Shown piece after piece: positions 4,589 through 27,338 of a DNA stretch of 32,170 nt. Source of the stretch: a virus; the IMG/VR virus record IMGVR_UViG_3300035688_000043, positions 1-32,170 of that record; one strand, written 5' to 3'. Both the position numbers and the translations under genes were made by a program. The notes beneath the pieces were generated by a model, which saw only the letters and a program-made list of their open reading frames with translations, was not told where the DNA came from and ran no database searches. Position 1 is the first letter of the stretch. Each line of letters begins with the position of its first letter.

Positions 4589-4665
4589 CCCAAAAACTTT
4601 ATTCTACCCTGCTGAATAGGACTATTGACAAAATTACGGCTTGAATTTAATCTATATATAATGAT
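4582..4665 (+). repeat. Direct repeat copy 1 (~84 bp), left border of cassette
   Basis: This copy aligns with 7523-7606. The core of 33 bases from 4589 is identical in both copies (starting CCCAAAAACTTTATTC and ending CTGAATAGGA), as is a 19-base block ending TTAATCTATATAT. The middle differs at several bases. The two copies are 2941 bases apart and enclose the genes at 4661-7515. Confidence 0.85.
4625..4653 (+). promoter_or_regulatory. Candidate promoter in repeat copy 1
   Basis: TTGACA (4625-4630), a 17-base spacer and TAATCT (4648-4653) resemble a sigma-70 promoter; the -35 is perfect and the -10 is weak. Both hexamers and the spacing are kept in the second repeat copy. Transcription would begin near 4660, almost at the ATG of the next gene, which would make that message leaderless. 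Confidence 0.5.
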
Positions 4666-5410
4666 AAAAATTATTATAAACAGGGCACTCCATAGTGCCT
4701 ATTGCGCGGTTAAACGAAGGACTCGTCGAATAGCGATTACTTCGGCTGTGTTGTGCCTTGTACTATTCTTCGCCACGAATGGATGGGCGGCTTTCCCCAC
4801 AACAGGAATATTAGATAGTTTTGATAGAGCAAATGCTGGGTCTCTTGGTGCTGATTGGAACGAGGTAGTAGCAAGTTATTCGATAGTCTCTAATCAAGCG
4901 AGGGGTAATGCTGTAAGTAATTGGCAAATAGCAAATTATGTAGCCATTACTTATGATGCTGACTTTGAAGTCTATCTTACACTTAACACCCTATCTAATA
5001 CTAGCGGTAGTGGAGAAATATATGGTATTGATGCGAATGGGAATGGCTATGGTGTTTTATGGAATAATTATACCAACACTATGCAAATTAGTATACACAA
5101 TGGAAGTGATTGGGGAGAAGCTCTTGGGAGTGTAATATCTCAAACGATAAATAGTGGCAATAAAATAGGATTTTCTAAGGTCGGTTCTACCCTAACTGCT
5201 TATATTAACACGGGTGGTGGCTGGAGTGTAGTAGATACGGTAATAGATAACACTTATAATGTTTCTCCTATTTATCTTAGTATGGCTTGTTACCGTAGTT
5301 CTACTGAGGCTGATTACTATAACGACTTCGGCGGGGGGACGGCGGTGAGTGGTGACGTTTATTCCGGCCGCGGATTCGGCAGAGGAATCGGGAGAGGAAT
5401 AGGAAGATGA
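4661..5410 (+). CDS. Secreted LamG/concanavalin-like protein with Gly-Arg tail
   Basis: The likely start is ATG 4661 (249 residues); the frame is open back to a TTG at 4625, but that lies in the promoter-like repeat. The N-terminus has a basic stretch (KRRTRR) and a hydrophobic segment (IAITSAVLCLVLFFATNGWA) with a Sec-type cleavage site before AF. The rest looks like a concanavalin/LamG beta-sandwich (DSFDRANAGSLGADWN, later STLTAYINTGGGW), often used for sugar or surface binding. It ends in a repeated GRG(F/I)GRGIGR tail. No Shine-Dalgarno precedes it, which fits leaderless translation from the repeat promoter. The gene sits in the repeat-bounded cassette between terminase and portal, where a secreted protein is unexpected. 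Its role as a fibre, decoration or lysogen surface protein is open. Confidence 0.65.
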   Translation: MIKIIINRALHSAYCAVKRRTRRIAITSAVLCLVLFFATNGWAAFPTTGILDSFDRANAGSLGADWNEVVASYSIVSNQARGNAVSNWQIANYVAITYDADFEVYLTLNTLSNTSGSGEIYGIDANGNGYGVLWNNYTNTMQISIHNGSDWGEALGSVISQTINSGNKIGFSKVGSTLTAYINTGGGWSVVDTVIDNTYNVSPIYLSMACYRSSTEADYYNDFGGGTAVSGDVYSGRGFGRGIGRGIGR

Positions 5411-5657
5411 GAGTTTATCCAAGAGAAGATGGGACATTTATCTGAAACCTGGAGATTATGCTTTTGATAAGGATATAGGTTATTGGGTTGTAAGACCTCC
5501 AAAATCACAATGCCACACTGGGGGCATTCCAGACCATAGTGTTATTGAACATGACGATGGAACTATCACCGTATCCCCATCTATTTTATTAACTGGATTA
5601 ACTCCAGAAGAAAATTATCACGGATATCTTGAGCGCGGGATTTGGAGGGAATGTTAA
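5407..5657 (+). pseudogene. Frameshifted small phage protein (SPSI/WREC type)
   Basis: An ATG at 5407 overlaps the TGA of the upstream gene (ATGA) and reads MRVYPREDGTFI before a stop at 5443. The -1 frame, open from after the TAG at 5400, continues as WDIYLKPGDYAFDKD, then DGTITVSPSIL and YHGYLERGIWREC, ending at 5657. Joined by one frameshift near 5428-5436 the product would be about 83 residues. The SPSI and W-R-E-C features resemble small phage-encoded proteins (DUF6527-like); this is from memory. No canonical slippery heptamer is seen before the stop, so a mutation or sequencing error is more likely than programmed frameshifting. The next gene's Shine-Dalgarno lies in its end. Confidence 0.55.
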
Positions 5658-5658
5658 A

Positions 5659-7515
5659 ATGAAAAAAATTATAATTTTTACTCTTGGATTTATTTTATTA
5701 TTTTCAGGAATAGCACAGGCCCTTGAGTTAGTTAGACAAAAAAACGTTGCTACCTACATTGTGGTACCCCTCATAGATGCAGACGGTGATATCGTTACAG
5801 GAGCCGCAGGATTAGACAGTGAAAGAAATTATTGGGCAGACGGAAGCGCGCCCCAGACCACTTTTGCTGATTGCACTAATGAAGCCACTGAAATAGGCAC
5901 GACAGGCATTTATTATTTATCTTTAACGGCTGCGGAATTAAATTATCAATACGTAGCCATTCAAATCAAAACTTCTACCACTGGCGCAAAGACACAGCAT
6001 ATCCTTATCCGCACCACTATAGGTGCACCTGCCAATTTCGCCACAACCGACGACGGGGGGACGATAAACGTCACGGGGGGAGCAGTGGATACGGTTACGA
6101 CCACGACAACAGCGACGACAGCAACTAATCTAACCAACGCCCCGACGAATGGCGATTTGACCGCAACAATGAAAACTTCCGTAACTACGGCCGCCACGTC
6201 GTCAACTCCTGCATTATCGGCTGCCGGAATTGACGCTATCTGGGATGAAGCCGCAAGCGGACATACCACAACAGGGACATTCGGAAAATATCTTGATAAG
6301 CAATTGACTACTTTTAACGATATAACGGCTGCCTCTGTTTGGTCTGTTGCTACGCGGTTGCTTACGGCAGGGACTAACATTGCATTGGCGAAGGGAACTG
6401 GAGTCACCGGCTTCAACGATATCACAGCTGCGAATGTTTGGGATACCAATATCTCTGCTTATTCCGGCGCGGGATACGCTGGAACTTATTTAAAAGGTAT
6501 TTACGATAAATTACCTGCCGGCACGATAGGCACTTCTACCTATGCAGGCGGCGCAGTTGCATCGGTTAGCGGAAGCGTCGGTAGCATATCAGGAATTACA
6601 TTTCCGACTAACTTTGGAGTATTGTCAATTTCAGCCACAACCGGCCTTGTGGACATAACACAGACCGCCGCAGATAAAGTATGGGCTACTTCCGCAAGAG
6701 CTTTAACGGATAAATCCGGATTCAGTTTATCGCAGACATTCCCAGCTAATTTCTCTGCTTTATCTATTTCCTCTGGTGGCTTGGTAGACATATTGCAAAC
6801 CGCAGCGGATAAAGCATGGAGTACTACCGCAAGAACACTTACCGCAGGTACCAATATAGCTTTAGCAAAAGGCACCGGCGTAACCGGCTTTAATGACATA
6901 GCGGCTACCGACGTTTGGGCCGCAGCCACAAGGACACTTACCTCTGGCGGATATTCAGGACTTACAGCAACCGATATCGATAACGTCTGGGACGAATTGA
7001 TAACAGGGCACATAACCGGAAGCAGTTTCGCTAAATTATTCACGGATAATCTTAATGCTACTATTAGCAGCAGATCAAGCCATAGCGCCGCAGACGTGGC
7101 TACCCTAATACTTGCGACGCCGGCATATAAATTGGTTACTGATTCAAGCGGGCGAGTTACAGTCGGCAGCAATGCAGATAAAACAGGATATAGTATATCT
7201 GGCACTAAGACGACTTTAGATACTCTCAATGATATCACCGCAGCCGCTGTATGGACCGTAGTTAGTAGATCTTTAACTGATAAAGTAGATTTTGGATTAT
7301 CGAGCGTGGCCATTACAGCTATTTGGGATAAAAATATTTCAGGATATACGACCGATGGCCTTGCCGGATATTACCTTAAGAATGCAGGAGGCGGTTCATC
7401 GCCGGCAGAGATAGCTGATGCGGTATGGGATGAATTATTAGCAGGGCATATTACATCAGGAAGTACAGGTAAGAAACTTAATGATAGCCCGACACTTTAT
7501 GATGTAGGGCCATAA
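5659..7515 (+). CDS. Signal-peptide-bearing repetitive fibre-like protein
   Basis: ATG 5659 is the likely start (618 residues), 9 bases after GGAGGG (5644-5649); the frame extends upstream to a TTG at 5629 that would hide a clear signal peptide. MKKIIIFTLGFILLFSGIAQA is an ideal Sec signal. An N-terminal beta-domain follows (VATYIVVPLIDADGD to about residue 115), then a Thr/Ala-rich linker and an Ala/Thr/Ser/Gly-rich array with recurring FNDITAA-VW, AADK-W-TARTLT and VWDE--GH-T-G--GK-L units. The last unit type occurs three times (IWDEAASGH, VWDELITGH, VWDELLAGH) and is one I associate with phage fibre proteins. It is probably a trimeric fibre or surface protein. The cassette location and signal peptide are unusual for a virion protein. 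Codon use matches the neighbours. Confidence 0.65.
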   Translation: MKKIIIFTLGFILLFSGIAQALELVRQKNVATYIVVPLIDADGDIVTGAAGLDSERNYWADGSAPQTTFADCTNEATEIGTTGIYYLSLTAAELNYQYVAIQIKTSTTGAKTQHILIRTTIGAPANFATTDDGGTINVTGGAVDTVTTTTTATTATNLTNAPTNGDLTATMKTSVTTAATSSTPALSAAGIDAIWDEAASGHTTTGTFGKYLDKQLTTFNDITAASVWSVATRLLTAGTNIALAKGTGVTGFNDITAANVWDTNISAYSGAGYAGTYLKGIYDKLPAGTIGTSTYAGGAVASVSGSVGSISGITFPTNFGVLSISATTGLVDITQTAADKVWATSARALTDKSGFSLSQTFPANFSALSISSGGLVDILQTAADKAWSTTARTLTAGTNIALAKGTGVTGFNDIAATDVWAAATRTLTSGGYSGLTATDIDNVWDELITGHITGSSFAKLFTDNLNATISSRSSHSAADVATLILATPAYKLVTDSSGRVTVGSNADKTGYSISGTKTTLDTLNDITAAAVWTVVSRSLTDKVDFGLSSVAITAIWDKNISGYTTDGLAGYYLKNAGGGSSPAEIADAVWDELLAGHITSGSTGKKLNDSPTLYDVGP

Positions 7516-7522
7516 ACGGTCT

Positions 7523-7606
7523 AAATTAACCCAAAAACTTTATTCTACCCTGCTGAATAGGAGTATTGACAAGATATTGATTTGAATTTAATCTATATAT
7601 GATGAC
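7523..7606 (+). repeat. Direct repeat copy 2 (~84 bp), right border of cassette
   Basis: This is the second copy of the repeat at 4582-4665, starting just after the fibre-like gene. The 33-base core (7530-7562) is identical to copy 1, followed by the shared TATTGACAA and the 19-base AT-rich block. Recombination between the copies would remove 2941 bases and leave the zinc-ribbon gene next to the leader of the adaptor gene at 7744. Confidence 0.85.
7566..7594 (+). promoter_or_regulatory. Candidate promoter in repeat copy 2
   Basis: TTGACA (7566-7571), 17 bases, then TAATCT (7589-7594), identical in both hexamers and spacing to copy 1. It would drive the adaptor, portal and capsid genes. An ATG at 7602, at the same position as the start in copy 1, opens only a 10-codon frame (MTNIFKMQKT, stop 7632), perhaps a relic of the ancestral gene. 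Confidence 0.5.
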
Positions 7607-7659
7607 TAACATATTCAAAATGCAGAAAACCTAGAAGATAAAATAATTTAGATTAAGTC

Positions 7660-7730
7660 CGGGGACGCCTGGATTTTTCATGAGCGGCAGTTAAGGTGCC
7701 TTAACCATCTTACTGCCGCTCTGTTTTTTT
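7660..7730 (+). terminator. Double hairpin with T-run before the adaptor gene
   Basis: A small hairpin TCCGGG / CCTGGA (one G-T pair) around GACG is followed by TTTTT. Next comes a perfect 10 bp stem GAGCGGCAGT (7682-7691) / ACTGCCGCTC (7712-7721), with an inner TTAAG/CTTAA palindrome in its loop, then TG and seven T (7724-7730). Alone it would be called an intrinsic terminator, yet the next gene's ribosome binding site starts at once (GAGGG, 7731). It may limit or process readthrough from the promoter at 7566. The layout matches 1731-1801. Confidence 0.7.
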
Positions 7731-7743
7731 GAGGGAAAAAAAT

Positions 7744-8295
7744 ATGGCCGTAGAACGTGAAAACGCAGTAATAAATAATCAAATTACTTTAAGAAATAAT
7801 TTCCGCTTCACATCTACCAACGATCTCTTTGATCCCTACGCAATTTCAAAAGTAGAAATCCTGGATAGCGACGGTTCTACGGTATTACAGACATTAACCG
7901 GCGCAAGTATCGTTAAAGATTTTACCGGTAAATATCATGTTGTGGCAGCTGCTATCGCCACAGCTAAAACAATTTATGATAAATGGTATTTTACACCGGC
8001 ATCCGGGGCAACTGAAATCACCCGGACAAATATTTGTATCGTTTGGGAAACCGCCGCCGCGGCGGGAGAGGTCGTATTAGAGACTACAGACGCTGCCATG
8101 CTGACAGCGGTAAAACAAGCTATTGCCGCGCGCCTATCCGGCGGGGCAGTGCAGTCATACAGTATCGGCGGCCGCAACCTTCAATATTGCACGTTAGATG
8201 AACTCTGGAAATTAAGAAGAAACCTGGAAAAGAAAATTAATAATACCGCGGGAAGCGGAAGGACTTATGTAAAATTCATAAAAGCCGATGACTAA
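7744..8295 (+). CDS. Putative head-tail joining (gpW-like) protein with N-terminal beta domain
   Basis: ATG 7744 (183 residues) follows GAGGG at 7731-7735; the frame also reads from a TTG at 7729 that would overlap the T-run. The N-terminal ~115 residues look like an Ig-like or other beta domain. The C-terminal ~65 residues (YSIGGRNLQYCTLDELWKLR, then a charged helix) resemble gpW/DUF6148-type adaptors that sit between portal and stopper. It lies directly before the portal gene, overlapping by 8 bases, as gpW-like genes often do. The fusion of an extra N-terminal domain to a short gpW-like module is less usual. Confidence 0.6.
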   Translation: MAVERENAVINNQITLRNNFRFTSTNDLFDPYAISKVEILDSDGSTVLQTLTGASIVKDFTGKYHVVAAAIATAKTIYDKWYFTPASGATEITRTNICIVWETAAAAGEVVLETTDAAMLTAVKQAIAARLSGGAVQSYSIGGRNLQYCTLDELWKLRRNLEKKINNTAGSGRTYVKFIKADD

Positions 8296-9973
8296 CGCTA
8301 ACGAAACCAAAAAAACTTTTGCAGAACGGCTGTCAGAGAGAATAGACGGAATCTACGAAGTATTCTCTCCCGTAGCCGCGGCAAAAAGAAGATATTTCCG
8401 TTTCATCGCCAAGAATATGTTCGGCGCCTACCGTGGCGCGGAAGGCGGCCGGCTGCGCGGATCATGGATACCAGGGGGAGGATCAGCTGACGAAGACCTC
8501 TTGACAGACCTTTCCAAATTACGCGAAAAAAGCCGGGACCTGGTAAGAAATGATGGTATTGCCTCGGGGGCAATCAATACCATTATCACAAACATCATCG
8601 GCACCGGGATAAAGCCTCAAAGCAGGATCGATAGGGAAACCCTTAAGGTTGATGAAGATTATGCGGACCAGCTGCAACGCCAGATAGAAAAAATCTGGCA
8701 GCGTTGGGTTGCCTACGCCGACGCCGGAACCAGGAATAATTACTATGGCCTGGAGGAGCTTGCAGAGCGCCAGAGGTTCGTCAATGGCGAAGCCATAGTG
8801 ATTCCCTTGCGTATAACTAATAAGAAACGGCCTTACAGTTTTGCATTGCAGATCGTTGAATCAGATAGATTGGATACTCCCTCTGACATGGTTTCCAATA
8901 AAAGCATCCGTAAGGGCGTGGAAATCGGGGAATACGGCGAACCAATAGCATATTGGGTAAGAAAGACACATCCCGGCGATTATTTTTATAGCCGATATAC
9001 AAATAATAGCAGCAACAATTATATCCGATATCCCGCCTTGCGAGAAGATGAGGTAAAGAATTTTTATCATTTATATCATCTCCTGCGGCCCGGCCAGACG
9101 CGCGGGGAACCTTTCATGGCGCCGGTGATAAACCTATTCAAGGACCGTTTTGACTATATGGAAGCCGAACTCGTAGCTAACCGCGTAGCCGCGTGCTTTG
9201 CGGTATTTATAAAGAAAGAAAATGCGGCCGAACTTTCAATCGGAAGGTCAACCGTTGATAACACAACTCAAAAACGAATCGAAGAATTAAGCCCCGGATT
9301 ATTTGAATATCTTGAACCCGGGGAAGATATCTCGGCATTTAATCCGAACCGTCCGTCCGCGACATTCAATCCGTTTATGATACGCATATTAAGGGATATC
9401 GCATCCGGCCTGAACATTCCCTACGAAATACTGGCCAAGGACTTCTCCCAATCCAATTATTCAAACCTTCGCGGCGCTCTTCTTGAAGCAAGAAGATTTT
9501 TTATGATGCAGCAGCGTTTCATCGCGGATAATTTCGGCCAGCCAACCCTGGAATTGTTGATTGAGGAAGCATATCTAAAAGGCGAACTGCGGATCCTGGA
9601 TTTTTATACTAATAAGGAATCCTATGTAAAAACGCGCTGGATCTGTCCCGGCTGGCAATGGGTAGATCCCCAGAACGAAATAGAGGCCTCTACAAAAGCC
9701 GTAGACAATAATCTTTCCACGCTTTCGGAAGAAGTCGCATCCCAGGGATATGATTGGGAGGAAACCCTTGAACAGCGGGCCAGAGAACTGAGAAAGAAAA
9801 AAGACTTAGAGGAAAAATACGATATCAACATGACTCCTCAACCCGCGCAACCAAAGGCCGGCGACCCAAATAAAGATAAAAAACCCGGTGAACCAGCTCC
9901 CGGAAAAGAAAAAGATAAACCAGAAGGAACGCCGCCGGAAGAAGAATTGCCGGCAGAGGAAGCAAATGCATAA
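8288..9973 (+). CDS. Portal protein (lambda portal family)
   Basis: This 561-residue protein matches the lambda-type portal family in order and motifs: an N-terminal FSPVAAAKRRYFRF segment, LREKSRDLVRNDGIASGAIN, the GTGIKPQ loop and a conserved RLGQNIPYE-like region (IASGLNIPYEILAKDFSQ) followed by SNLRGALLEARR. It forms the dodecameric ring at the head vertex through which DNA enters and to which the tail attaches. The C-terminal ~45 residues are a low-complexity Pro/Lys/Glu tail. ATG 8288 lies within the end of the upstream gene, so translation is probably coupled. Length is normal for the family. Confidence 0.92.
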   Translation: MTNANETKKTFAERLSERIDGIYEVFSPVAAAKRRYFRFIAKNMFGAYRGAEGGRLRGSWIPGGGSADEDLLTDLSKLREKSRDLVRNDGIASGAINTIITNIIGTGIKPQSRIDRETLKVDEDYADQLQRQIEKIWQRWVAYADAGTRNNYYGLEELAERQRFVNGEAIVIPLRITNKKRPYSFALQIVESDRLDTPSDMVSNKSIRKGVEIGEYGEPIAYWVRKTHPGDYFYSRYTNNSSNNYIRYPALREDEVKNFYHLYHLLRPGQTRGEPFMAPVINLFKDRFDYMEAELVANRVAACFAVFIKKENAAELSIGRSTVDNTTQKRIEELSPGLFEYLEPGEDISAFNPNRPSATFNPFMIRILRDIASGLNIPYEILAKDFSQSNYSNLRGALLEARRFFMMQQRFIADNFGQPTLELLIEEAYLKGELRILDFYTNKESYVKTRWICPGWQWVDPQNEIEASTKAVDNNLSTLSEEVASQGYDWEETLEQRARELRKKKDLEEKYDINMTPQPAQPKAGDPNKDKKPGEPAPGKEKDKPEGTPPEEELPAEEANA

Positions 9974-10121
9974 AAAGACAACTAAATCTAAACAAGCAGA
10001 CTCCAATGGCCTGCTTATAGAATTGGCCGTCGTCCCCAAAGACGCAATGGTTAAACCCAAATCGATATTAATAAAAATAGAACGTAAAAGCATAGAAAGC
10101 ATAAGGAGGGCATTATCATGA
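9966..10121 (+). CDS. Small basic phage protein between portal and protease
   Basis: A 51-residue lysine-rich protein starting at ATG 9966, preceded by AGAGGAAG and overlapping the portal stop by 8 bases. Its own stop overlaps the next start (ATGA at 10118), and the end of the gene carries that gene's AAGGAGGG site. It has no cysteines or membrane segment; the middle reads GLLIELAVVPKDAMVKPKSI. The frame is open further upstream inside the portal gene, but those codons are a shadow. It may be a minor head component or exist mainly for translational coupling. Function unknown. Confidence 0.6.
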   Translation: MHKKTTKSKQADSNGLLIELAVVPKDAMVKPKSILIKIERKSIESIRRALS

Positions 10122-11272: not shown

Positions 11273-11301
11273 TAACCTTAACTAAAAGGAGGAGGTAAGA
11301 A

Positions 11302-11661: not shown

Positions 11662-11722
11662 AAGAGAAATAATATTTTAAAAAAGTAACATAAATAATCA
11701 TAACCAAAAGGAGGAGGTAAAG

Positions 11723-12682: not shown

Positions 12683-12699
12683 ACGAAATTAAAGAAGAT

Positions 12700-12740
12700 T
12701 TACCCGGGGCCTATTAAGGCCCCGGGTAACTTTGTTTATT
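12700..12740 (+). terminator. Strong hairpin after the capsid gene
   Basis: A perfect 12 bp stem TTACCCGGGGCC (12700-12711) / GGCCCCGGGTAA (12718-12729) with a six-base loop is followed by the T-rich CTTTGTTTATT. It ends just 11 bases before the next ATG (12741). It probably acts as a partial terminator or 3' stabiliser that leaves capsid mRNA more abundant than the connector and tail message. Confidence 0.75.
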
Positions 12741-13088: not shown

Positions 13089-13092
13089 TAAT

Positions 13093-16140: not shown

Positions 16141-16674
16141 TTATTCAGATTTGTAACCCTTAATACGCATACATCTATTGAATTCTTCAGATTTTCTTCC
16201 CATCGTAGAACCCAAAATACCAAGCATCATGCCGGAACCGGAAGAAGCAGGAGTCTCAGCTACGTATTTACAATCTTCGATATCTTTTTGAGTTTGTTCG
16301 GGGGATTTTTGAGGATTATTCCACTTATAATTATAGGCAGTGGCACATCCCGATAAGAATATTATGGAAAATAAAATTAAAAGACATTTTGATGGTTTTC
16401 TTAAAGCGACAGTAATAAGGGATGCCATAACTATGGGGATACACCAGAAAGCAATACCAAACATAATTGTTGGAAAAACAACTTCAGAAAAAAAATCATT
16501 GCTATTAATGCATTCGAATAATATAGCTCTTTTTGCTTCCTGTTCCCCCGAAACTATTTTTAACTGCTCGTATGCTGTTTGGTATTCTATTCTCTGCTTA
16601 TCACAATTCCATATAAAAATAAGAGCCGTTATTAATATCGATAATATTGTCCAGATAATTAAGAATCTCTTCAT
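16141..16674 (-). CDS. Reverse-strand membrane protein with lipobox-like C-terminal part (moron)
   Basis: This is the only convincing minus-strand gene. On that strand AAGGAG and a 5-base spacer precede the ATG at 16674, giving 177 residues. Segment 1 (LIIWTILSILITALIFIW) and segment 2 (FPTIMFGIAFWCIPIVMASL) span the membrane. A third hydrophobic stretch ends in LSGC at residues 107-110 (lipobox-like), followed by a soluble tail with paired cysteines (EDCKYVAETP, FNRCMRIKGYKSE) of a kind seen in small phage/prophage lipoproteins. It resembles a fusion of a two-helix membrane protein and a lipoprotein. It splits the usual chaperone-tape measure pair. Morons like this are often expressed in lysogens for superinfection exclusion or envelope changes; that role is inferred. 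Confidence 0.7.
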   Translation of the reverse strand: MKRFLIIWTILSILITALIFIWNCDKQRIEYQTAYEQLKIVSGEQEAKRAILFECINSNDFFSEVVFPTIMFGIAFWCIPIVMASLITVALRKPSKCLLILFSIIFLSGCATAYNYKWNNPQKSPEQTQKDIEDCKYVAETPASSGSGMMLGILGSTMGRKSEEFNRCMRIKGYKSE

Positions 16675-16693
16675 GATATCTCCTTGGTTAAGA

Positions 16694-16722
16694 AGTTTAA
16701 CATATAATCTGGAGGTTGTCAA
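16694..16722 (-). promoter_or_regulatory. Promoter for the reverse-strand moron
   Basis: Read on the minus strand: TTGACA (16722-16717), a 17-base spacer and TAAACT (16699-16694), about 20 bases upstream of the moron start. The -35 is perfect and the -10 matches four of six. The promoter overlaps the GGAGG ribosome binding site and start codon of the tape measure gene, so leftward transcription in the lysogen would oppose the late message. Confidence 0.6.
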
Positions 16723-18179
16723 TGCCCTCTAATAAAGAAATAGAGATAACTTTAACACTTAAAGATGCGGCTACAAAAAAAATTCAAAGTTTTAGAAGCA
16801 GTGTAAAAGAATTTTCAAATGCTACAAAAGATAGTTTGGCGCCAATTTTAAATCTTAGGCAGGCGTGGCATAAATTTGGGCTAGCTTCTGCTTTTGTCGT
16901 TGCTGGTCTTACTGCTGCCGTATCCCAGGTAAATAAATTGCGCGAGGAAGTAAAACAATTTGACAATATTGCAATCAAAATGGGCATTTCTACTGAAACT
17001 CTATCAAGAAAAATATATGGATTTAATATTGCCACAATTAACGCAAGGATAGGAATGGGAGAATTCCAAGCCTATGGCGCTAATATAGAAAAAATCGTAA
17101 AAGGAGGCTCATCCGGTGGATTAAATATTTTAGGTTCTATAGCAAAATATTGGCGAGCTTATAATCTACGTCTAAATGCTGAAGAGGAAATGAGGGAAGT
17201 ACCTTCTTGGTCCCAAGCTCTTAAAGAAGCCGAGAGACAGAAACTCGCTGAAATTCAAACAAGGAAAGAAAGCGAGGCTTATAAGAAAGGGATCGTGGCA
17301 GAAACTATAGCCAAAACAAAACAATTAGAGTTATCCGAATATGAATATAAAAGATGGCTATTAGATCAGGAAGTAAAAAATTATGCTAATGTCGGAGTAG
17401 GCAAAATAAATCTTTCCTCATACGAAACTGTTGCAATAAAACGTCTTGAAGAAGATAAGACCTTAGAACTCAATAAACAACAGGCCGTAAGATTAAAATC
17501 CGAGGGAAAAACTATACAGGCTTTTATTCTTGAACAGAAGACTGCCAAGCAAGCATATATCCGCATCTGGGGGCCCGATAGTGAAACAACTAAAGCCTTT
17601 ATAGACGGCCAAAAGGTGCAACTCAAAGAAGCAAAACTTGCCTATTATGGCCTCAGAAGTGAAGCTATTATCTGGCGCGATTTAATGAAAGATTCTATTC
17701 AACAAACCTCACAATACTTTGGGAATGTTCTTTATAGTGGTATCAAAAATAAATTTTCCGACCTCAAAGATGTCGTGGCCAGCTTTGGTGATACTTTACT
17801 TCAAGCAATTACCCAAGCGGCAGCTGCCTGGGTAATGACTAAATCTTTTGGCTTTTTAGGCCTTACTTTCCATAAAGGCGGCATGGTTTACCATTCTAGT
17901 GGAATAATCCGTGCCCATTCCGGCCTTGCCCCCGATGAGGTCCCCCTTATTGCACAAACCGGTGAAGCAGTCCTTTCCCGCAGGGGAGTAGCGGCTGCCG
18001 GTGGGCCTGATGTCATCCGCCAGTTCAATACCGGCCGCGGAGGAGGAAATCAGACTATTAATTATTACAATACCATCATAGCGCCACCTGGGACTACCAA
18101 AGAGGAATTAGAAAGAATGCTTATAAATGCTTTAAATCGTAATCGACCCGTAAAATACGCCATAAAAAACAGGGTATAA
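16722..18179 (+). CDS. Tape measure protein (short)
   Basis: ATG 16722 (485 residues) follows GGAGG at 16711-16715; a TTG at 16716 is not needed. The N-terminus (EIEITLTLKDAATKKIQSFR) is typical for tape measures, with a hydrophobic stretch (FGLASAFVVAGLTAAVSQ) soon after. A long coiled-coil centre rich in Lys/Glu follows, then the family's C-terminal signature: FHKGGMVYHSSGIIRAHSGL, DEVPLIAQTGEAVLSRRGVA. It sets tail length and is threaded into the host at infection. By the usual ~0.15 nm per residue, the tail would be about 70 nm, rather short. Confidence 0.88.
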   Translation: MPSNKEIEITLTLKDAATKKIQSFRSSVKEFSNATKDSLAPILNLRQAWHKFGLASAFVVAGLTAAVSQVNKLREEVKQFDNIAIKMGISTETLSRKIYGFNIATINARIGMGEFQAYGANIEKIVKGGSSGGLNILGSIAKYWRAYNLRLNAEEEMREVPSWSQALKEAERQKLAEIQTRKESEAYKKGIVAETIAKTKQLELSEYEYKRWLLDQEVKNYANVGVGKINLSSYETVAIKRLEEDKTLELNKQQAVRLKSEGKTIQAFILEQKTAKQAYIRIWGPDSETTKAFIDGQKVQLKEAKLAYYGLRSEAIIWRDLMKDSIQQTSQYFGNVLYSGIKNKFSDLKDVVASFGDTLLQAITQAAAAWVMTKSFGFLGLTFHKGGMVYHSSGIIRAHSGLAPDEVPLIAQTGEAVLSRRGVAAAGGPDVIRQFNTGRGGGNQTINYYNTIIAPPGTTKEELERMLINALNRNRPVKYAIKNRV

Positions 18180-18775: not shown

Positions 18776-18776
18776 A

Positions 18777-19649: not shown

Positions 19650-22600
19650 TGCAAAAACAAGATATAGATTTATTAAATAAGCTTATCGGTATTCCCTGGA
19701 AGGAAGATGGCAGGGATTATTCTGGGGCTGACTGTGGCGGCCTTATGCAACTTTATTTTAATGCCAAAGGGATAAAAGGAGAAGCCCCTAAAATCAGCGA
19801 AGTAAAAAATTGGCCCCCTGAAAAAATAGTCCAAAAGCTTCGTGATCAAAGTGAAATAATCAATAATGCCATAGATATCAAACCGGAAGATATTCTGGTC
19901 TTTAATATAAATAATGAACTACATGTCGGTCTATATCTCGGCTACGGCAGAATGCTCCATGCGCGCGCAGGGCAAACCAGTAAAATCAGCCCCCTCAATA
20001 TATATTGGATAAAATATTTTACCTTTGCTATTCGTATAAAAGATGGACAGATTTTTATCCCACCTGCAGGCCCCCCGGTTGTAATAGGGGCATTAATAGC
20101 CGCCGGCATAGGCACCGGAGTAGGTTATATTACCGGAGGATGGCAGGGGGCTCTCTTGGGATTCGCCGGCGGGCTTCTTTTTGGCATAGGTGCTGCTTTC
20201 GTAGGAGCCGCTTTAGGAACAGCTTTACAAAGTCAATATAAAAAAGGCGGTAGTGCGAGTTCCATGAAATATCAATTCGGAGAATTGCAGACGTCTGCAA
20301 CAAATCAAATAGTTGTCCCCAGGATTTATGGCCCCATGCGTTTTGCCGGCAATATAGTAGCGCAAAATCCGATAGAAGGCGGGGAAGTAGTAGATATGAT
20401 TGTGGTTCTATGCGAAGGAGAGATAGAAAGCATAAGCAATGTGCTTTTGGATGGCGAGCCCATTGCAAATTTTCCTGGTTGTAGTTATATCGCTTTTCTC
20501 GGCACCCCTACTCAAAATGTCGAAACCGATAGTGGCATGGATCTCAATGGTGTCCAATATCGCAATTTAGCCTGCCTATATATTCATTTGGAGTCATCCG
20601 ATAAGCTTAAGGGTGGCCGCCCCAATATCATCTGTACAGTAGAAGGCCAAAAGGTGCAAACCTGGAACGGTTCTTCCTGGAGCAGTAGCAAAACTTATTC
20701 CACCAATCCTGTAGGCTGTATCAGAGATTATCTTATTACCCGGGTACAACGCGGCGGATGCGGATATTCTATAATTGATCTGCATAGCAACTCTTTTGGT
20801 GAAACTTACGATGATTGTAATGACTTGGTTGACAACGGAGCCGGTGGAACAGAAAAACGTTATGAAATATCTTATGCGATAGACCAGAAACGTGCAGCCA
20901 TAGATAACCTTTCGGAGATGCTTCTTTCTTTTGCCGGCACTCTCTTCCGCAGCGGCTCACAATTTAAACTCATTTGTGCCAAATCAAAATCAGCCGTAGC
21001 GTCAATAGAAGAAGCTGATATGAAAGATTTCCGTATCATCCTGAAAAAGCTTGATCAGAAATTTAACCGCCTCGGAATTGAATATATTGATCCTGATCAA
21101 GATGACGCAAAGATATTGGCCTGGGGAGCGGAAGATAAAGCCGATCAGGATCGCCGCGGCATCTTTGAGCAAGTCATTAATATCCCTTCTATAGAAAAAC
21201 GCACTCAGGCCCTAAGGCTGGCCAATCAATTCTTTTATGAACTTAAACTTTGTCCATTGGGAATGGAATTTTTCACATCCCTTAATGCCATATCCTGGGA
21301 ACTGGGGGATGTTGTCAATTTAACACATTCCAGAATGAACTGGACTAACAAATCCGTACTTATTCTTGGTATTGAAGAAACCGAAATGGAGACCTTCCGC
21401 ATTACTGTTCAAGAATATAATTCAACTATTTATAATGACCGTTATGGTGCCACGATTGAAACCTTTAAATATGGTACCCCGCCTAATCCCTATGCACCGG
21501 TAACCGAAATAAGCAATTTACAGATATCCGAAGGGGAATATTATCTTCATAAAGATGGTACCGTAGGATCTGATATCCTTATTAGCTGGAATGCTCCCTC
21601 AGATTCTAGCCGTATGTTTTTAAGTCATTACCAGATTGAACTTAAAAAAGCCGGAGGTGACTGGCATGTTGTAGGCACAACAACCGCTATTAATCATACA
21701 ATTTCTGGAATTCAAGATGAGATTACTTATCAAGTAAGAGTTAAAACCGTATCTATAAATCATATCGTTTCTGATGGAATTATTTCTTCTGAACTTACTA
21801 TCCTAGGTAAACTTAATCCCCCTGCTAATCCTACCGGTTTTGAAGTATATCAGCAGGGAAATCAATTAAGAATCAAATGCGATCCCTGCCCGGACGTGGA
21901 TTTCGCCTTCTTCCGCTTTAAAAAAGGTTCAGAATGGTCTACCGGAGATATCATAGCCGAGCGCGCCGACGTCACGGAATTTTCTTATCCCGTAGGGGAA
22001 ATAGGACTACAGACCTTTATGGTCAAGGCAGTAGATAGGTCCGGCATCGAAAGTAATGCTCCCGGAATAGACACTATTGATGTTGTCCCTCCCCCAGATA
22101 TGAACTTCGTCAACATCTTTGACCGCTGGGGCGTGCCTTTGGAATTTAAATTAAATAATCTTGAGCAGGTTCAGGCGAATTATCACAATTCCAGTTATGT
22201 CCGCCCCTGCCTGGCTCTTAAAACTGCCACCACCTGGGAAGAACGCGAAGCAGAGGCCAAGACCTGGGAGCAGCAGGAGGCAGACGGGGGACTTCTGCTC
22301 GACGGCAACGTGGAAACTTCCGGCTACGCTGAAATGATCCAACCCTACGATATCGGTACCATAATAGAATTTCAAATGGTGGTGGATGCAGATTATAAAA
22401 ATGTAACCGGTGGAACAGTCACTATCCAAGTCAGCTATAGCGAAGACGGAATAACTTATCCATCTTTTGCCGCCATAGACCCGACTATCACCTACCGCGC
22501 CCGGTACCTAAAATTCAAAATAATAATCGAAACGTCTGATGCCGCCTATAACGTATATCTTTATAACCTTTATATTTATATAAACGCTCCATCCGTAAAA

Positions 22601-22828
22601 AAATCGTGGTTTAAAGATGTCCTCATACCCATAGCCGGAAAAACATTAATCTTTGATGCCGGTTTTACCGTACCGCCCCGCATAACGCATAGCGTTGTAA
22701 ACGGAGTTATCGGCCTGGTGATTTTTAATAATAAGACCAAAGACCAGGTAAACGTTATGGTATATGACCCGGCTACCAAGGCAGCCATAGGGACCGCCGA
22801 AATAGATGCAGAGGCGATGAGTTATTAA
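19649..22828 (+). CDS. Fused NlpC/P60 peptidase - gpI-like - gpJ-like tail tip protein
   Basis: This 1059-residue protein joins parts that are usually separate. Residues 1-130 are an NlpC/P60 cysteine peptidase with Cys29 (SGADCGG), His92 (ELHVGLYLG) and possibly His104 (MLHARAG). Residues ~142-198 are a Gly/Ala-rich hydrophobic segment like lambda gpI. Residues ~200-610 match the gpJ-type tip core (QIVVPRIYGPMRFAGNIVA, VVLCEGEIESISNVLLDGE). Two fibronectin-III-like domains follow (~615-705, ~722-800), then a discoidin-like domain (~865-980) and a C-terminal domain. The peptidase could cut peptidoglycan during DNA entry, and the distal part contacts the host. Only the peptidase would be cytoplasmic-style; whether the chain is later cleaved is unknown. 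Confidence 0.85.
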   Translation: MQKQDIDLLNKLIGIPWKEDGRDYSGADCGGLMQLYFNAKGIKGEAPKISEVKNWPPEKIVQKLRDQSEIINNAIDIKPEDILVFNINNELHVGLYLGYGRMLHARAGQTSKISPLNIYWIKYFTFAIRIKDGQIFIPPAGPPVVIGALIAAGIGTGVGYITGGWQGALLGFAGGLLFGIGAAFVGAALGTALQSQYKKGGSASSMKYQFGELQTSATNQIVVPRIYGPMRFAGNIVAQNPIEGGEVVDMIVVLCEGEIESISNVLLDGEPIANFPGCSYIAFLGTPTQNVETDSGMDLNGVQYRNLACLYIHLESSDKLKGGRPNIICTVEGQKVQTWNGSSWSSSKTYSTNPVGCIRDYLITRVQRGGCGYSIIDLHSNSFGETYDDCNDLVDNGAGGTEKRYEISYAIDQKRAAIDNLSEMLLSFAGTLFRSGSQFKLICAKSKSAVASIEEADMKDFRIILKKLDQKFNRLGIEYIDPDQDDAKILAWGAEDKADQDRRGIFEQVINIPSIEKRTQALRLANQFFYELKLCPLGMEFFTSLNAISWELGDVVNLTHSRMNWTNKSVLILGIEETEMETFRITVQEYNSTIYNDRYGATIETFKYGTPPNPYAPVTEISNLQISEGEYYLHKDGTVGSDILISWNAPSDSSRMFLSHYQIELKKAGGDWHVVGTTTAINHTISGIQDEITYQVRVKTVSINHIVSDGIISSELTILGKLNPPANPTGFEVYQQGNQLRIKCDPCPDVDFAFFRFKKGSEWSTGDIIAERADVTEFSYPVGEIGLQTFMVKAVDRSGIESNAPGIDTIDVVPPPDMNFVNIFDRWGVPLEFKLNNLEQVQANYHNSSYVRPCLALKTATTWEEREAEAKTWEQQEADGGLLLDGNVETSGYAEMIQPYDIGTIIEFQMVVDADYKNVTGGTVTIQVSYSEDGITYPSFAAIDPTITYRARYLKFKIIIETSDAAYNVYLYNLYIYINAPSVKKSWFKDVLIPIAGKTLIFDAGFTVPPRITHSVVNGVIGLVIFNNKTKDQVNVMVYDPATKAAIGTAEIDAEAMSY

Positions 22829-22965
22829 TGAAAGGGTATTGTGCTACTTGCAAAAAGATAACTGATATCAATAATCCGCAATCCGTTAAATTACCCAATG
22901 CCAAACGTGTAACCAAAGGTAATTGTGCGGAATGCGGCACAGAAATCTGGAAAAAGGAGACCTAA
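22828..22965 (+). CDS. Small zinc ribbon protein, DUF5679-like
   Basis: A 45-residue protein starting in the TAATG overlap with the tip gene and ending in another TAATG overlap with the next. MKGYCATCKK and GNCAECGTEIWKK give C5/C8 and C33/C36, and the middle NNPQSVKLPNAKRVTKG fits DUF5679 closely. That family is made of tiny zinc ribbons, often in phages, with no known function. Its last codons carry the AAGGAG ribosome binding site of the following gene. Confidence 0.75.
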   Translation: MKGYCATCKKITDINNPQSVKLPNAKRVTKGNCAECGTEIWKKET

Positions 22966-23894
22966 TGGAAAGGCATATATACGACGAAAATCAACCTCAA
23001 GGCAGCATGAGTTTATTAAATTTAAGAAATGCCCTAAGGGGTCTTTTCCAGGGGGATTTAATGTCCTTACGACCCCGAGCTTCAATGATCCTAGATGATA
23101 TGGAATATTCAACCGACGCCCTGGCTCAGGCCGCATGGAGCGGAACAGGGGTAACCGTAACCAAATCCACCACTAAATATGAAGGCAATTATGCCCTACA
23201 ATGCGCCATTGATGGTACCGGCAATCGCAAAGTATTTAAGACTGAAACTCTGGACCTGTCTGCCTTTAAGCAAATCAAACTATGGGAAAGAGTAGATGTG
23301 GCTTCGTCAGGAATACAGCTCTATTTAAAAGATAGTGCCGGCAATGAAAGTTATTGGGATATTATTACCAGCGGCACGCCAAATGATTGGCAACAGGATA
23401 TCCTGGATTTAACTACTTCGGATTCCAACAATGGCACAGATGCCGATTTATCCGATATCGTAGAATGGGGTTTTCTGGGTTTGGATACCTCAAAAACATA
23501 TATCTTTGACGCTATAAAGACCGTTTGCGGTCTTAACGTCGCCGTCCAAGGAGCATTAATAGGATCCTTCTACCGCAATGTTTATCTTGGCCTAAATAAT
23601 ATGACCTTTGCCGGAGGTCCTGCGCCGGCAATAACCCCACCTGCATCTAACCCGCGCATTGATTTGCTGGTCCTAAATGCATCCAATGCCCTAGAATGGA
23701 TAACCGGTACAGAAGCCAGCTCACCCGCAGAGCCGGCATTCCCTACAGATAAAATCCCGATTTGCCTCATATATTGTAAGACTACCATGGCAAAAGTAGT
23801 GGACTATGAAGATAAAGACGCGAATCCGAATGAAGCATATATTTATAGAGATGTGCGGCCATTATTCTGTATACCGCAGATTACGATAAGTTAA
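22965..23894 (+). CDS. Tail fibre/baseplate protein with carbohydrate-binding-like domain
   Basis: ATG 22965 behind AAGGAG gives 309 residues; an upstream frame to 22923 is just the overlap with the zinc ribbon gene. Residues ~40-190 (ILDDMEYSTDALAQAAW ... YEGNYALQCAIDGTGN ... DWQQDILDL) look like a jelly-roll, carbohydrate-binding-module or galactose-binding-like domain. The C-terminal third (SNPRIDLLVLNASNALEWITG, then PAFPTDKIPICLIYCK) is a common end of phage tail proteins. It probably forms part of the tail tip decoration next to the gpJ-like protein and may bind host sugars. No enzymatic motif is seen. Confidence 0.65.
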   Translation: MERHIYDENQPQGSMSLLNLRNALRGLFQGDLMSLRPRASMILDDMEYSTDALAQAAWSGTGVTVTKSTTKYEGNYALQCAIDGTGNRKVFKTETLDLSAFKQIKLWERVDVASSGIQLYLKDSAGNESYWDIITSGTPNDWQQDILDLTTSDSNNGTDADLSDIVEWGFLGLDTSKTYIFDAIKTVCGLNVAVQGALIGSFYRNVYLGLNNMTFAGGPAPAITPPASNPRIDLLVLNASNALEWITGTEASSPAEPAFPTDKIPICLIYCKTTMAKVVDYEDKDANPNEAYIYRDVRPLFCIPQITIS

Positions 23895-23904
23895 GGAGGA
23901 TAGT

Positions 23905-24909
23905 ATGAGAAAATTTGCAATCTATTGTTTTATAGCTACATTTTTTATTAATTCTGTTTATGCCGCAGATAAAGCCATTGTATACGATGATACCAATAAA
24001 AAGATAAAAACAAGCCAACCATTGCCTGTTGCCCAAGGCGGTACCGGTTCAGCTACACAGAACTTTGTCGGACTCACCGGTGACCAGTCAATAGCTGGAG
24101 CCAAGACCTTTACTTCTATTCCAGTTTTGCCTGCATCTGACCCGACAACTGATAATCAGGCCGCCCGAAAAGCGTATGTAGATACGAAACCAGTTATAAA
24201 TACTTTAACCGAGAAAACAGCTCTCGTTGACAATGACTTGTTTATCATCGAAGACAGCGAAGCAAGCAACGCCAAAAAGAAAGTCAAAAAAAGTAATGTT
24301 TCTAGCATTAGGAATCAACTTTTTACATCATCAGGAATATTTACCGCACCAGCAGGAATAACTAAAGTTTATCTTTCTGGTTGCGCAGGGGGCGGTGGCG
24401 GTGGCGGTGCTTCATCTTTAGGTTCTGGTGGTGGTGGAGCAAGTGGCATGTCCGTAATAAAATATCCTTATACAGTAATACCAACAAGTGAATATACAGT
24501 TACTATCAATGGTGGTGGGGCAGGTGGAGTTAATGATTCATCAGGAAGCACAGGCGGAACTACAGTATTTGGGACATTAACTCTTTTAGGTGGCAATGGT
24601 GGAGATTATGGCAGTAGTGCTGCAGGTGGTTCAGCATTTACTCCTAATGGTATTAATGCTGTTGGCGGCACAGGTGGCATAGGTGGTAAGGATTGTGTAG
24701 CAAGCGGGGCAGGTGGGAATGGTTCTGGCACAGCAGGGGGCGGTGGCGGTGGCGGAAATCCATTTGGCATAGGTGGCGCAGGTGGAAATTCATCAACAGC
24801 AGGTAGTAACGGAACTGGATATGGTTCTGGTGGCGGTGGCGCAGGTGGTGGAACAAATTATAGGAATGGTGGAAATGGACAAGCAGGATTTATATTAGTG
24901 GAATGGTAA
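23905..24909 (+). CDS. Glycine-rich tail fibre/adhesin with signal peptide
   Basis: ATG 23905 follows AAGGAGGATAGT. MRKFAIYCFIATFFINSVYA is a Sec-type signal peptide with a cleavage site before ADKA. The next part (VAQGGTGSATQNFVGLTGDQ, then AARKAYVDTK) is typical of phage tail fibre shafts. After about residue 145, FTAPAGITKVYLSGCAG opens a glycine-rich domain with many G-runs, like the polyglycine receptor-binding adhesins of T-even phages (gp38 type) and the Gly_rich_2 family. It ends in GFILVEW. It is the probable receptor-binding fibre, yet a cleavable export signal on a virion fibre is unusual. 334 residues. Confidence 0.78.
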   Translation: MRKFAIYCFIATFFINSVYAADKAIVYDDTNKKIKTSQPLPVAQGGTGSATQNFVGLTGDQSIAGAKTFTSIPVLPASDPTTDNQAARKAYVDTKPVINTLTEKTALVDNDLFIIEDSEASNAKKKVKKSNVSSIRNQLFTSSGIFTAPAGITKVYLSGCAGGGGGGGASSLGSGGGGASGMSVIKYPYTVIPTSEYTVTINGGGAGGVNDSSGSTGGTTVFGTLTLLGGNGGDYGSSAAGGSAFTPNGINAVGGTGGIGGKDCVASGAGGNGSGTAGGGGGGGNPFGIGGAGGNSSTAGSNGTGYGSGGGGAGGGTNYRNGGNGQAGFILVEW

Positions 24910-24910
24910 A

Positions 24911-25414
24911 GTGAAACCAGAATATAAAATACAAATTAAGGCATTGTTTAAGCTCTTGTGGGTGGTAGGATTTGCCTTTCTCTATGCTCTTGGCGGTATT
25001 GAGCATAAAGAAATACGCCGATTTATCGCGCCTATCTGGCTCACTTCTGGAATGTATTTATTTAGCCGTGACTGGCGCGTATTTTTACAAGCGCCTCTAT
25101 TAATGGCAACTTTAAGTATGGGCTATGGCGCTGAGGCCTTTTGGGTAAAGGTAGGAAGACGTTTGCTCTTTGCCTTCGCGAATGCCATTACTGCGATAGT
25201 ACACATAAGAATTGATTTCCACGGTGCCGGATGGAATGAAGTTACATTAGACCGCAATTTCAAGATTTTATTCAATTTAAATTTAATCCTCTGCGCGGTT
25301 GTAATAATTACCTTAGGTGTCTTAAATCCCCTGCAAGCCAGGGCAGAGGAATTGATCATAGGTTTCATTATAGGATTGATCCCAATGTTCATGCCAAAAG
25401 ATAAAGACCAATGA
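24911..25414 (+). CDS. Polytopic membrane protein, function unknown
   Basis: A 167-residue protein, start GTG 24911 just after the adhesin stop, with no strong ribosome binding site. Hydrophobic segments lie near residues 10-28 (ALFKLLWVVGFAFLYALGG), 38-52, 60-75, 84-100, 122-138 (LNLILCAVVIITLGVL) and 146-160, so four or more membrane helices are likely. It is followed by an ATGA overlap with the next gene. A membrane protein among fibre genes could be a holin-like factor, a fibre-modifying membrane partner or an exclusion protein; nothing in the sequence decides. Confidence 0.55.
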   Translation: MKPEYKIQIKALFKLLWVVGFAFLYALGGIEHKEIRRFIAPIWLTSGMYLFSRDWRVFLQAPLLMATLSMGYGAEAFWVKVGRRLLFAFANAITAIVHIRIDFHGAGWNEVTLDRNFKILFNLNLILCAVVIITLGVLNPLQARAEELIIGFIIGLIPMFMPKDKDQ

Positions 25415-25845
25415 TAACTTTAATTAAAGGAAAATACTACACTTTTAAAGTTGGCTTCGGCAAAAGCAAGGTCGGCAAAGACGTCCAGTACCAGATCCTA
25501 AATTATGACCTTACTATAGAACAAGACTATACCGCATCCGGCGTCATGGAGCTGGGGGATGGAGAATATGGCGTCCGGCTTTCCTTTGATGAGGAATTTT
25601 CCGGCTATATCCGCTGGAAAGACGTCACAGATAATATCGTCGCCAGCGATCCTATTACTATTATAGAAGATTACGTCGCAAAGATATCCACTCTTTATAA
25701 AATCGATACCGGCCGCTGGAAGATACAAAACAACCAGATGATCTTTTACGATTCCGATGGCCTGACCGAATTGCTTAAATTCAATCTTAAGGACGAAAAC
25801 GCTAATCCCACTATGGTCAAGCCGTTTGAAAGGACCCCTGTATGA
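25411..25845 (+). CDS. Tail-associated protein, probably fibre or baseplate component
   Basis: A 144-residue beta-rich protein starting in the ATGA overlap at 25411. It begins MITLIKGKYYTFKVGFG and ends with a WKIQNNQMIFYDSDGLTELL segment followed by a hydrophilic tail ending FERTPV, an ending I recall from small phage tail proteins. It also overlaps the next start (ATGA at 25842). No signal peptide or cysteine motif. Its partners are presumably the fibres encoded on both sides. Function is not known. Confidence 0.6.
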   Translation: MITLIKGKYYTFKVGFGKSKVGKDVQYQILNYDLTIEQDYTASGVMELGDGEYGVRLSFDEEFSGYIRWKDVTDNIVASDPITIIEDYVAKISTLYKIDTGRWKIQNNQMIFYDSDGLTELLKFNLKDENANPTMVKPFERTPV

Positions 25846-25985
25846 TAATCTCCCGCGGCTTCATATACGGCACCATGGTATCGAAGGGCTACGGAAAGTT
25901 CGGTTTCGGCATGTATATAAAGATATTATCGGTAACCATTAGCGAGTTTATTAACCAGATAATTAATTGCGAGGATAGTATATGA
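25842..25985 (+). CDS. Very small protein in overlapping gene chain
   Basis: A 47-residue frame from ATG 25842 (ATGA overlap with the gene before) to TGA 25985. It starts MIISRGFIYGTMVSKGYGKF and ends CEDSI. Its last codons (GAGGATAGTATATGA) contain both a ribosome binding site and the start of the next gene, a design repeated at the end of the following gene. It is too short for a family call; the coupled arrangement argues that it is translated. Confidence 0.5.
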   Translation: MIISRGFIYGTMVSKGYGKFGFGMYIKILSVTISEFINQIINCEDSI

Positions 25986-26146
25986 GTTTCGTAAAAATCG
26001 TAAGCGTTACGGCAGGAGAATACATTCAGCAAGCCATCCGGGCTAGCGAGCATATATACAGCCAGATCATCCCCTCTGAACTAATCAAGGACATTATCCT
26101 TATAGAGCACATAACCCAATCGATTACCATGGAGGATAGTATATGA
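25982..26146 (+). CDS. Very small protein in overlapping gene chain
   Basis: A 54-residue frame from ATG 25982 to TGA 26146 (MSFVKIVSVTAGEYIQQAIR ... ITMEDSI). It overlaps both neighbours by four bases (ATGA) and ends in the same 15 bases, GAGGATAGTATATGA, as the gene before it. The shared ending suggests tandem duplication of a coupling module, or one gene's end being copied. Predicted mostly helical. Function unknown. Confidence 0.5.
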   Translation: MSFVKIVSVTAGEYIQQAIRASEHIYSQIIPSELIKDIILIEHITQSITMEDSI

Positions 26147-26433
26147 AATATGCCACCTCGAACAATCCAAAACTCGGAACCACCATCAACATCACTTGTA
26201 CCCCTGTCATCCCCGGGGGAGGCGCTCCTGACAGCGTTAAGATTACCATAAAAGATGGAGGCGGGACAGCAAGAATTACCGACACGGCTATGACAAATAA
26301 TGGAGACGGCACATACACGTACCTTTTCAAAAGCCTGACAAGTTATACCTCTGGGGTATTTAAGGCCACTATAACCGCCTTATCAGGGGATTATCCTGGG
26401 GTATCAGAAGTCAACTTTACTTTAGAGGCATGA
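26143..26433 (+). CDS. Small Ig-like beta-sandwich protein
   Basis: A 96-residue protein from ATG 26143 (ATGA overlap). The pattern SVKITIKDGGGTARITDTAM, then GDGTYTYLF and GVFKATITALSG, is that of a bacterial Ig-like (Big/filamin-like) domain, common in phage tail and capsid decoration. No signal peptide. It is followed by ATGATGA overlap with the next fibre gene. It probably decorates or extends the tail fibre complex. Confidence 0.65.
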   Translation: MKYATSNNPKLGTTINITCTPVIPGGGAPDSVKITIKDGGGTARITDTAMTNNGDGTYTYLFKSLTSYTSGVFKATITALSGDYPGVSEVNFTLEA

Positions 26434-27338
26434 TGAAAATAATAAAAGCATTTACTATTTTTGCGTTTCTATTATTAAGTACCTGTTTTGCTGCAGGCCC
26501 GATATATGATCAGGCCATAGATATCGAAAACACTCCTGCCGGCAACATCTCATCAACCAATGTCCAGGCTGCGGTAAACGAACTGGACAGCGAGAAACAG
26601 GCGGCAGGAAATTACTTCAATAAAACTTCCGATGATACCGACGACATCGCCGAAGGCTCGACCCATAAATTTGCCGACACCACAAAAGAGAACAACGGAC
26701 AGACTGCCTATGGCTGGGGCAATCACGCGGGACTATATTCTTTATTAAATCACAATCACGATTTAATTTATCTTAGTCTATCTGCTACCGCCGCCGATTC
26801 TGGTAAACTCAACGGACAATTAGCATCATATTATTTACATTCCGAAACTGACCCTACCTACACCTCTTGGTATAATTCGGGTTCGCCGATATTAACTACA
26901 TTAAAATATGTTGATGCCAATACCTATATCACCAGAGATGGCTCTAATAATTTATCCTTCACCGATGCCAATGCGGGAACAGTAACACTTACCTCATTAA
27001 AAAGTATGCGTAACATCTGGATTTCTGCCGCAACACAATCAGAAGGCAACCTCACGCTTTCGGATGGAACTAATTGGGCTACGCAGTATTCGTTTATTTC
27101 CTACATCAATGTGGTTTGTGCCTCAACAAATTGGTCTATGTGGCTTTGTGAAACTTCGGCATTTAATACTGGTCTTATTACTACCCGACAGATAGCATCC
27201 AATATAAACGGCAATGCGACTTTATATATCAATCAGGAATATAATTCCGATGGGAATAATGTTTATATTATCTATACTGATGTGGCAGGAACAGCGACAG
27301 CAAGTATTTTAATTTCGGGAGAGGCACGCAGGCACTAA
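26430..27338 (+). CDS. Tail fibre protein with signal peptide
   Basis: ATG 26430 (or 26433) gives 302 residues starting MMKIIKAFTIFAFLLLSTCFA, a Sec-type signal with a likely cleavage before AGPIYD. After it come collagen-free fibre motifs: NVQAAVNELDSEKQA, AYGWGNHAGLYSL, NHNHDLIYL and ATAADSGKLNGQLASYYLH; the AADS-KL-G--AS-Y pattern recurs widely in phage side fibres. The C-terminal part is a beta-rich tip (TLTSLKSMRNIWISAATQ...). It overlaps neighbours at both ends. As with the adhesin at 23905, the export signal is unexpected for a virion fibre. Confidence 0.75.
   Translation: MMKIIKAFTIFAFLLLSTCFAAGPIYDQAIDIENTPAGNISSTNVQAAVNELDSEKQAAGNYFNKTSDDTDDIAEGSTHKFADTTKENNGQTAYGWGNHAGLYSLLNHNHDLIYLSLSATAADSGKLNGQLASYYLHSETDPTYTSWYNSGSPILTTLKYVDANTYITRDGSNNLSFTDANAGTVTLTSLKSMRNIWISAATQSEGNLTLSDGTNWATQYSFISYINVVCASTNWSMWLCETSAFNTGLITTRQIASNINGNATLYINQEYNSDGNNVYIIYTDVAGTATASILISGEARRH

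Follow-up and report, generated by a model that had tools for sequence, protein, structure and literature searches.

Results

The DNA analysed here, a virus record of 32,170 bases that we refer to as the window, carries a lambda-like late module. Its genes run in the order methylase, TerS, TerL, zinc-ribbon protein, head-tail adaptor (W), portal, capsid, tube, tape measure, J and fibres, and an integrase forms the right end (Table 1). TerL relatives are present in 19 of 384 Omnitrophota genomes, the nearest relative of the window (G118) shares 71%, 79% and 76% identity with it in TerL, portal and capsid, respectively, and the GTDB contig collection yielded a single confirmed match, to a contig titled Omnitrophica bacterium. 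Judging from these relatives, whose own host assignments rest on genome bins and most of whose contigs are fragments, the host phylum of the window is very likely Omnitrophota. No relatives of J were found in viral contigs. In the Omnitrophica relative, an inserted glycosyltransferase-like gene (L045, 11551-12750) separates portal from the head gene that follows it, a similar gene occupies the same place in G132 and G135, and the minus strand of the window holds an ORF with several hydrophobic segments and seven cysteines (16141-16722) that overlaps a doubtful plus-strand ORF (16340-16732).

Table 1. Positions of the features discussed, in the window unless a genome or locus is named (SP, signal peptide).
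Feature	Position	Strand	Remarks
Left 90-bp direct repeat copy	4582..4671	+	ends over A start codon
Protein A, 249 aa	4661..5410	+	SP about 4661-4789 (aa 1-43); C-terminal tail YSGRGFGRGIGRGIGR
Protein B, 618 aa	5659..7515	+	SP 5659-5721 (aa 1-21); N-terminal beta-rich domain, then repeats
Right direct repeat copy	7523..7612	+	87% identical to left copy
Terminator-like hairpin and seven T	7682..7731	+	between B and W; fold -24.8 kcal/mol for 7676-7735
Head-tail adaptor W (aa 115-171) with extra N-terminal domain of ~114 aa	7744..8295	+	phrog_118, phrog_5774; profile match to R4C adaptor
Protein C, tail fibre (by homology), 334 aa	23905..24909	+	SP 23905-23964 (aa 1-20); glycine-rich C-terminal domain
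Small protein before D	26143..26433	+	gene overlaps D; weak Ig-like similarity
Protein D, weakly fibre-like, 302 aa	26430..27338	+	SP about 26430-26492; second ATG at 26433
SP-bearing homologues of A-D			A and B in G216, G081, L209 and others; C in G001/G137; D in G118
Sequon-rich SP proteins of the T7-like G001 phage	L062 1241-4210; L061 321-1507		mostly N-X-T
Secreted tail-fibre-type domain proteins of Omnitrophota genomes	L206 1087-2178; L203 955-1989; L204 541-2088		fetched flanking genes not phage-like

A preliminary description of this DNA held that four fibre-like products begin with Sec signal peptides (SPs), and all four open reading frames were found where it had placed them (A at 4661, B at 5659, C at 23905 and D at 26430). 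Gene starts and SPs were called with simple scripts, the SP score being a home-made one that reads n-, h- and c-regions and was calibrated on 11 E. coli signal peptides (3.9-8.0). On this scale B scores 8.0, C 6.0, D 5.0 and A 3.9, and a score of at least 5 is reached by just 1.5% of 404 six-frame start codons, which serves as the null rate. The predicted cuts fall between MIKIIINRALHSAYCAVKRRTRRIAITSAVLCLVLFFATNGWA and AFP in A, MKKIIIFTLGFILLFSGIAQA and LEL in B, MRKFAIYCFIATFFINSVYA and ADK in C, and MMKIIKAFTIFAFLLLSTCFA and AGP in D. By the same score, B, C and D follow the Sec/signal peptidase I pattern of a basic n-region, an uncharged hydrophobic core and small residues at -3 and -1, as does A, but with an unusually long n-region. 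Taken alone, A is the weakest of the four, having this long n-region and no Shine-Dalgarno sequence; its homologues have ordinary signal peptides. For each of A-D, other phages or prophages, mostly of Omnitrophota, encode an SP-bearing homologue, which in our reading is stronger evidence than any score. The earlier observation that other structural genes lack such signals also stands, as portal, MCP, tube, TMP, J and the spike at 27619 score below zero or yield no candidate at their called starts; the only other called window gene that comes near is g24911 (score 4.3), which has further hydrophobic segments. Mature A-D contain few cysteines, disulfides having been considered as a reason for export, and reading of A-D revealed no lipobox, LPXTG motif, beta-barrel or other known anchor.

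B is the clearest of the four cases. It matches no significant domain family in family and profile searches, PHROG included, and has no match among 50,697 deposited phage genomes. The B domain was readable at 84 loci in viral contigs, some of them near-copies; at 68 the protein starts directly at the domain (e.g. MASTDARPVPRKNVAYRV), and at 16 an SP precedes it. Proteins of the SP-less class (L036-L043, L214, L221-L288) thus have the same N-terminal beta-rich domain as B and differ in lacking the leader. In a tree of 78 B domains, 14 SP-bearing proteins and a single SP-less one (L214) form one group with 100% SH-aLRT support. Eight B homologues, window B included, have an A-x-A-type cut at the border of the mature protein, and in the four closest B proteins the leader is 25-50% identical as against 61-78% for the first 110 mature residues. 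Window B lacks a C-terminal motif common to the other B proteins. One Omnitrophota genome encodes a B-like protein with no signal peptide (L082 403-2958, G043:C10), so the SP trait is not universal in this phylum; it may also reach beyond it, since L215, L218-L220 and L275 have no assigned host.

Protein A has a weak match to the virion structural family phrog_2804 (3.8e-6), and its G216 homologue is a concanavalin A-like lectin (Laminin_G_3, 1.1e-11), by way of which A is predicted to be lectin-like; its own predicted structure (pLDDT 37) is too poor for use. The tail YSGRGxGRGxGRGxxR of A is common to SP-bearing proteins of G216, G081, L209, L210, L212 and L291, with one substitution in L209, and in these same six A and B both carry SPs and their genes overlap. 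In L214, B starts at the first mature residue and the two preceding ORFs, one of them with the tail of A, are likewise SP-less, and more distant phages, too, have an SP-less protein encoded before B, in several cases lectin-like by eye. A and B are thus alike in having or lacking SPs, as expected if both act in one compartment. In relatives, there is overlap or direct contact among the SP genes and between them and W, the arrangement expected of genes expressed together late. Between A and B of the window lies an ORF broken by a frameshift (5407-5657), which begins MRVYPREDGTFI and whose other frame ends at a stop immediately ahead of B; G216 and G081, in which the A and B genes overlap, have no such ORF.

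That A and B sit in a repeat-bounded cassette was likewise part of the preliminary description, and the two 90-bp direct repeat copies confirm it. A survey of related phages strengthened the SP case through the homologues that it turned up, and it shows the cassette to be a mobile module. A single origin of the cassette on the TerL tree was rejected (p-AU 1.2e-5, on a tree with long branches). The repeat contains no sigma-70 promoter that we could find, the region having no excess of promoter-like sites over chance. An element of 75-81 bp that includes the hairpin (window 7661-7741) recurs with 75-84% conservation in G022, where it immediately precedes W, and in G216, where it precedes the cassette; its side relative to the cassette thus varies between phages. 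A moron is expected to have a promoter and a terminator of its own; the unit has a terminator-like hairpin and no promoter-like site better than chance, and its genes are coupled to W in relatives.

SP-bearing B proteins are encoded directly upstream of a head-tail adaptor gene in unrelated phages, with adaptors of the W, gp11-like, Ad1 and phrog_442 types. In W-type phages this adaptor is phrog_118/5774. The corresponding G001 protein matches tail family phrog_394 (1e-45, aa 111-306), is gp11-like by position and has ~110 extra N-terminal residues; Ad1 of G146 (phrog_477, weak) has about 98 extra residues, and the phrog_442 adaptor of L218 and L219 has no evident extension. W is 163-247 aa long in 11 of 11 W-phages with a visible SP cassette (the window, G002, G003, G216, G081, G161, L209, L210, L212, L216 and L291), as against 43-87 aa from the first ATG/GTG, and no more than 110 aa between stop codons, in each of the 25 that lack the cassette, W being uncertain in one of these rows (G092). 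G118, the closest relative, has neither cassette nor W extension. On the TerL tree (30 rows), the cassette trait changes three times and W equally often; because the rows are related a simple exact test would mislead, and independent contrasts number just 2-3, so that a sign test could not reach significance.

In its W-like tube domain, W has a profile hit to the R4C adaptor (8gtd_M, E 6.7e-4). The extension, ~110 extra residues predicted to be beta-rich, is modelled with pLDDT below 50 and gave no significant fold match; the W structure being of low confidence, the evidence for the R4C link is the sequence profile match of the W part. In the adaptor of roseophage R4C (PDB 8gtd), an Ig-like domain touches the capsid and is proposed to steady that contact (PMC10276861). 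Window W shares the tube domain and has its extra N-terminal beta-rich domain where R4C has the Ig-like one, but no exported partner has been described for R4C, and its Ig-like domain has not been proposed as a fibre carrier. We propose that the W extension is a docking point for A and B; given the capsid contact in R4C it may have another role, and the seemingly extension-less adaptor of L218 and L219 is a point against docking through it.

The label 'fibre-like' fits the four proteins unequally. C matches phrog_863 over most of its length (7e-34, aa 45-334) and Gly_rich_2 (1.5e-8), and its assignment as a tail fibre by homology is well supported. D is weakly fibre-like, with a weak match to phrog_10485 (5.5e-5) and 42% identity to an SP-bearing G118 protein, and the label is less well supported than for C in the case of A, with its lectin-like homologue, and of B, a repeat protein with an N-terminal beta-rich domain. 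The small protein encoded before D matches Big_3_5 (0.023) and Invasin_D3 (0.011), both below curated cut-offs. Signals of this kind are indeed unusual for fibres: among the 32 relatives of C with a readable start (SP-less C family, L002-L034), which have the same fibre domain, 31 lack an SP, and the one that carries it is L013, from phage G001. The Omnitrophota genome G137 contains this phage as a prophage, its proteins being essentially 100% identical to those of G001. In the window, fibre C and the genes that follow it are separated by a gene for a membrane protein (24911-25414), which has a 30% identical homologue in the G146 fibre region.

In G001/G137, the five SP proteins contain 52 N-X-S/T sequons (44 of them N-X-T) versus 23 reversed motifs and 21 N-X-X-S/T motifs, with shuffle z-scores of 6.7, 5.0, 3.1, 2.4 and 0.5, and the 38 SP-less proteins contain 57 versus 60 and 54, respectively. 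Host G137 has a gene for an oligosaccharyltransferase of the STT3 type (113 bits), and sequons are also frequent in some of its pilin-like proteins, although the host-wide signal in secreted proteins is weak (ratio 1.19). For the G001 phage, translocation and N-glycosylation offer the best explanation of the enrichment in SP proteins. Neither the window proteins nor most other phages examined are enriched in sequons, so that N-glycosylation, considered as a general reason for export, was kept for G001/G137 only; STT3 found no match in G118 or G081.

Discussion

The SP-bearing group in the B tree, the matching presence or absence of SPs on A and B, the adjacency to adaptor genes, the co-variation of W and the sequon enrichment in a phage whose host encodes STT3 all make these signal peptides look functional, and we consider it highly probable that the leaders of A-D work for export. 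The preliminary description was thus right that the signals are real; between the two roles that it offered, late attachment to virions or surface proteins of the lysogen, sequence alone does not separate. Adaptor adjacency and the co-varying W extension favour virion attachment, and the lack of a recognised outer-membrane anchor weakens a version with stably surface-held proteins.

What happens in the living cell, namely whether and when the proteins are exported and how they join the virion, we infer from this evidence as follows. A-D would be structural-type phage proteins whose Sec signal peptides lead to export and processing, and they would therefore fold in the periplasm, N-glycosylated in some hosts, apart from the virions assembling in the cytoplasm. 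Upon lysis, the periplasmic fibres would meet finished particles: A and B would attach as a pair to the neck, for which the N-terminal domain added to W is the probable docking site, and C and D would go to the tail. We regard this explanation as a whole, in which exported fibres join the neck and tail after lysis, as evenly poised between right and wrong. The terminator-like hairpin that parts B from W in the window is a point against it, as are the small number of independent contrasts behind the W co-variation, the lack of sequon enrichment in the window proteins and the C-terminal motif missing from window B. Its more specific form, that Omnitrophota tailed phages make part of their virion in the periplasm and that a mobile, Sec-exported lectin/fibre module, in one lineage probably N-glycosylated, docks post-lysis on the neck via a domain added to the head-tail adaptor, is put forward tentatively, at rather less than even confidence.

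Phage genes for exported envelope proteins have precedent in lambda Lom and Bor, lom lying within the tail gene region, although these are an outer-membrane protein and a lipoprotein, not fibre-domain proteins, and are not known to be tied to a head-tail adaptor. The exported proteins may instead have no place in the virion. Made by the lysogen or the infected cell from moron-like genes that draw on fibre domains, they could serve as adhesins, either held at the surface or released, as receptor maskers or in superinfection exclusion. In favour of this, repeats flank the window cassette, the terminator-like hairpin after it leaves room for a separately controlled, moron-like unit, and Omnitrophota chromosomes (G351, G112, G069) encode secreted proteins that, like A-D, combine a signal peptide with fibre-type or glycine-rich domains but that, as far as the fetched flanks show, lie outside recognisable phage modules. 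PblA and PblB of Streptococcus mitis phage SM1 are tail proteins that also act as adhesins at the host surface (PMC7600539, PMC3675006); in this Gram-positive host they are freed by the phage holin and lysin and then bind wall choline (PMC7600539). Their release by phage lysis involves no Sec leader, whereas A-D carry one and a surface role for them is hypothetical. Against an adhesin function stand the absence of any known anchor on reading A-D, the conserved head-tail adaptor neighbourhood with its co-varying W extension, and the close coupling to structural genes in relatives, and we rate this, the main alternative, as less likely than virion attachment but still serious. Adhesion and virion attachment would not be exclusive, as PblA and PblB do both.

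A different alternative is that the hydrophobic N-termini are retained, as an oligomerisation or membrane-contact element of a virion protein assembled in the cytoplasm. Processing is here predicted from sequence, and fibres often have functional N-terminal attachment segments; however, the complete n/h/c pattern, with an A-x-A-like site where the leader meets the domain, recurs in many divergent proteins and on unrelated partners, and in G001 the sequon enrichment is restricted to SP proteins, which together make retention improbable. Least likely is an artefact of wrong starts or chance hydrophobic stretches, which could point to the low-scoring start of A and its missing Shine-Dalgarno sequence. 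The null rate and the many phages with homologous signal peptides rule it out as a general account, and for B it is refuted.

Exported fibre-like proteins tied to neck genes and joining the virion after lysis thus remain our preferred reading. As far as we know, the assembly of tailed phages is regarded as an entirely cytoplasmic process, and a literature search, mostly of openly accessible papers, found no paper on signal peptides of tailed-phage fibres. The recurrence of the same SP-labelled proteins in unrelated Omnitrophota viruses suggests an unrecorded way of making, and perhaps of late-mounting, fibres. With such an exported set tied to neck genes, virion making would gain a step of export and, in one lineage, possibly one of periplasmic glycosylation. 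For a phylum of which very few members are in culture, the set also provides ways to test how phage and host make contact.
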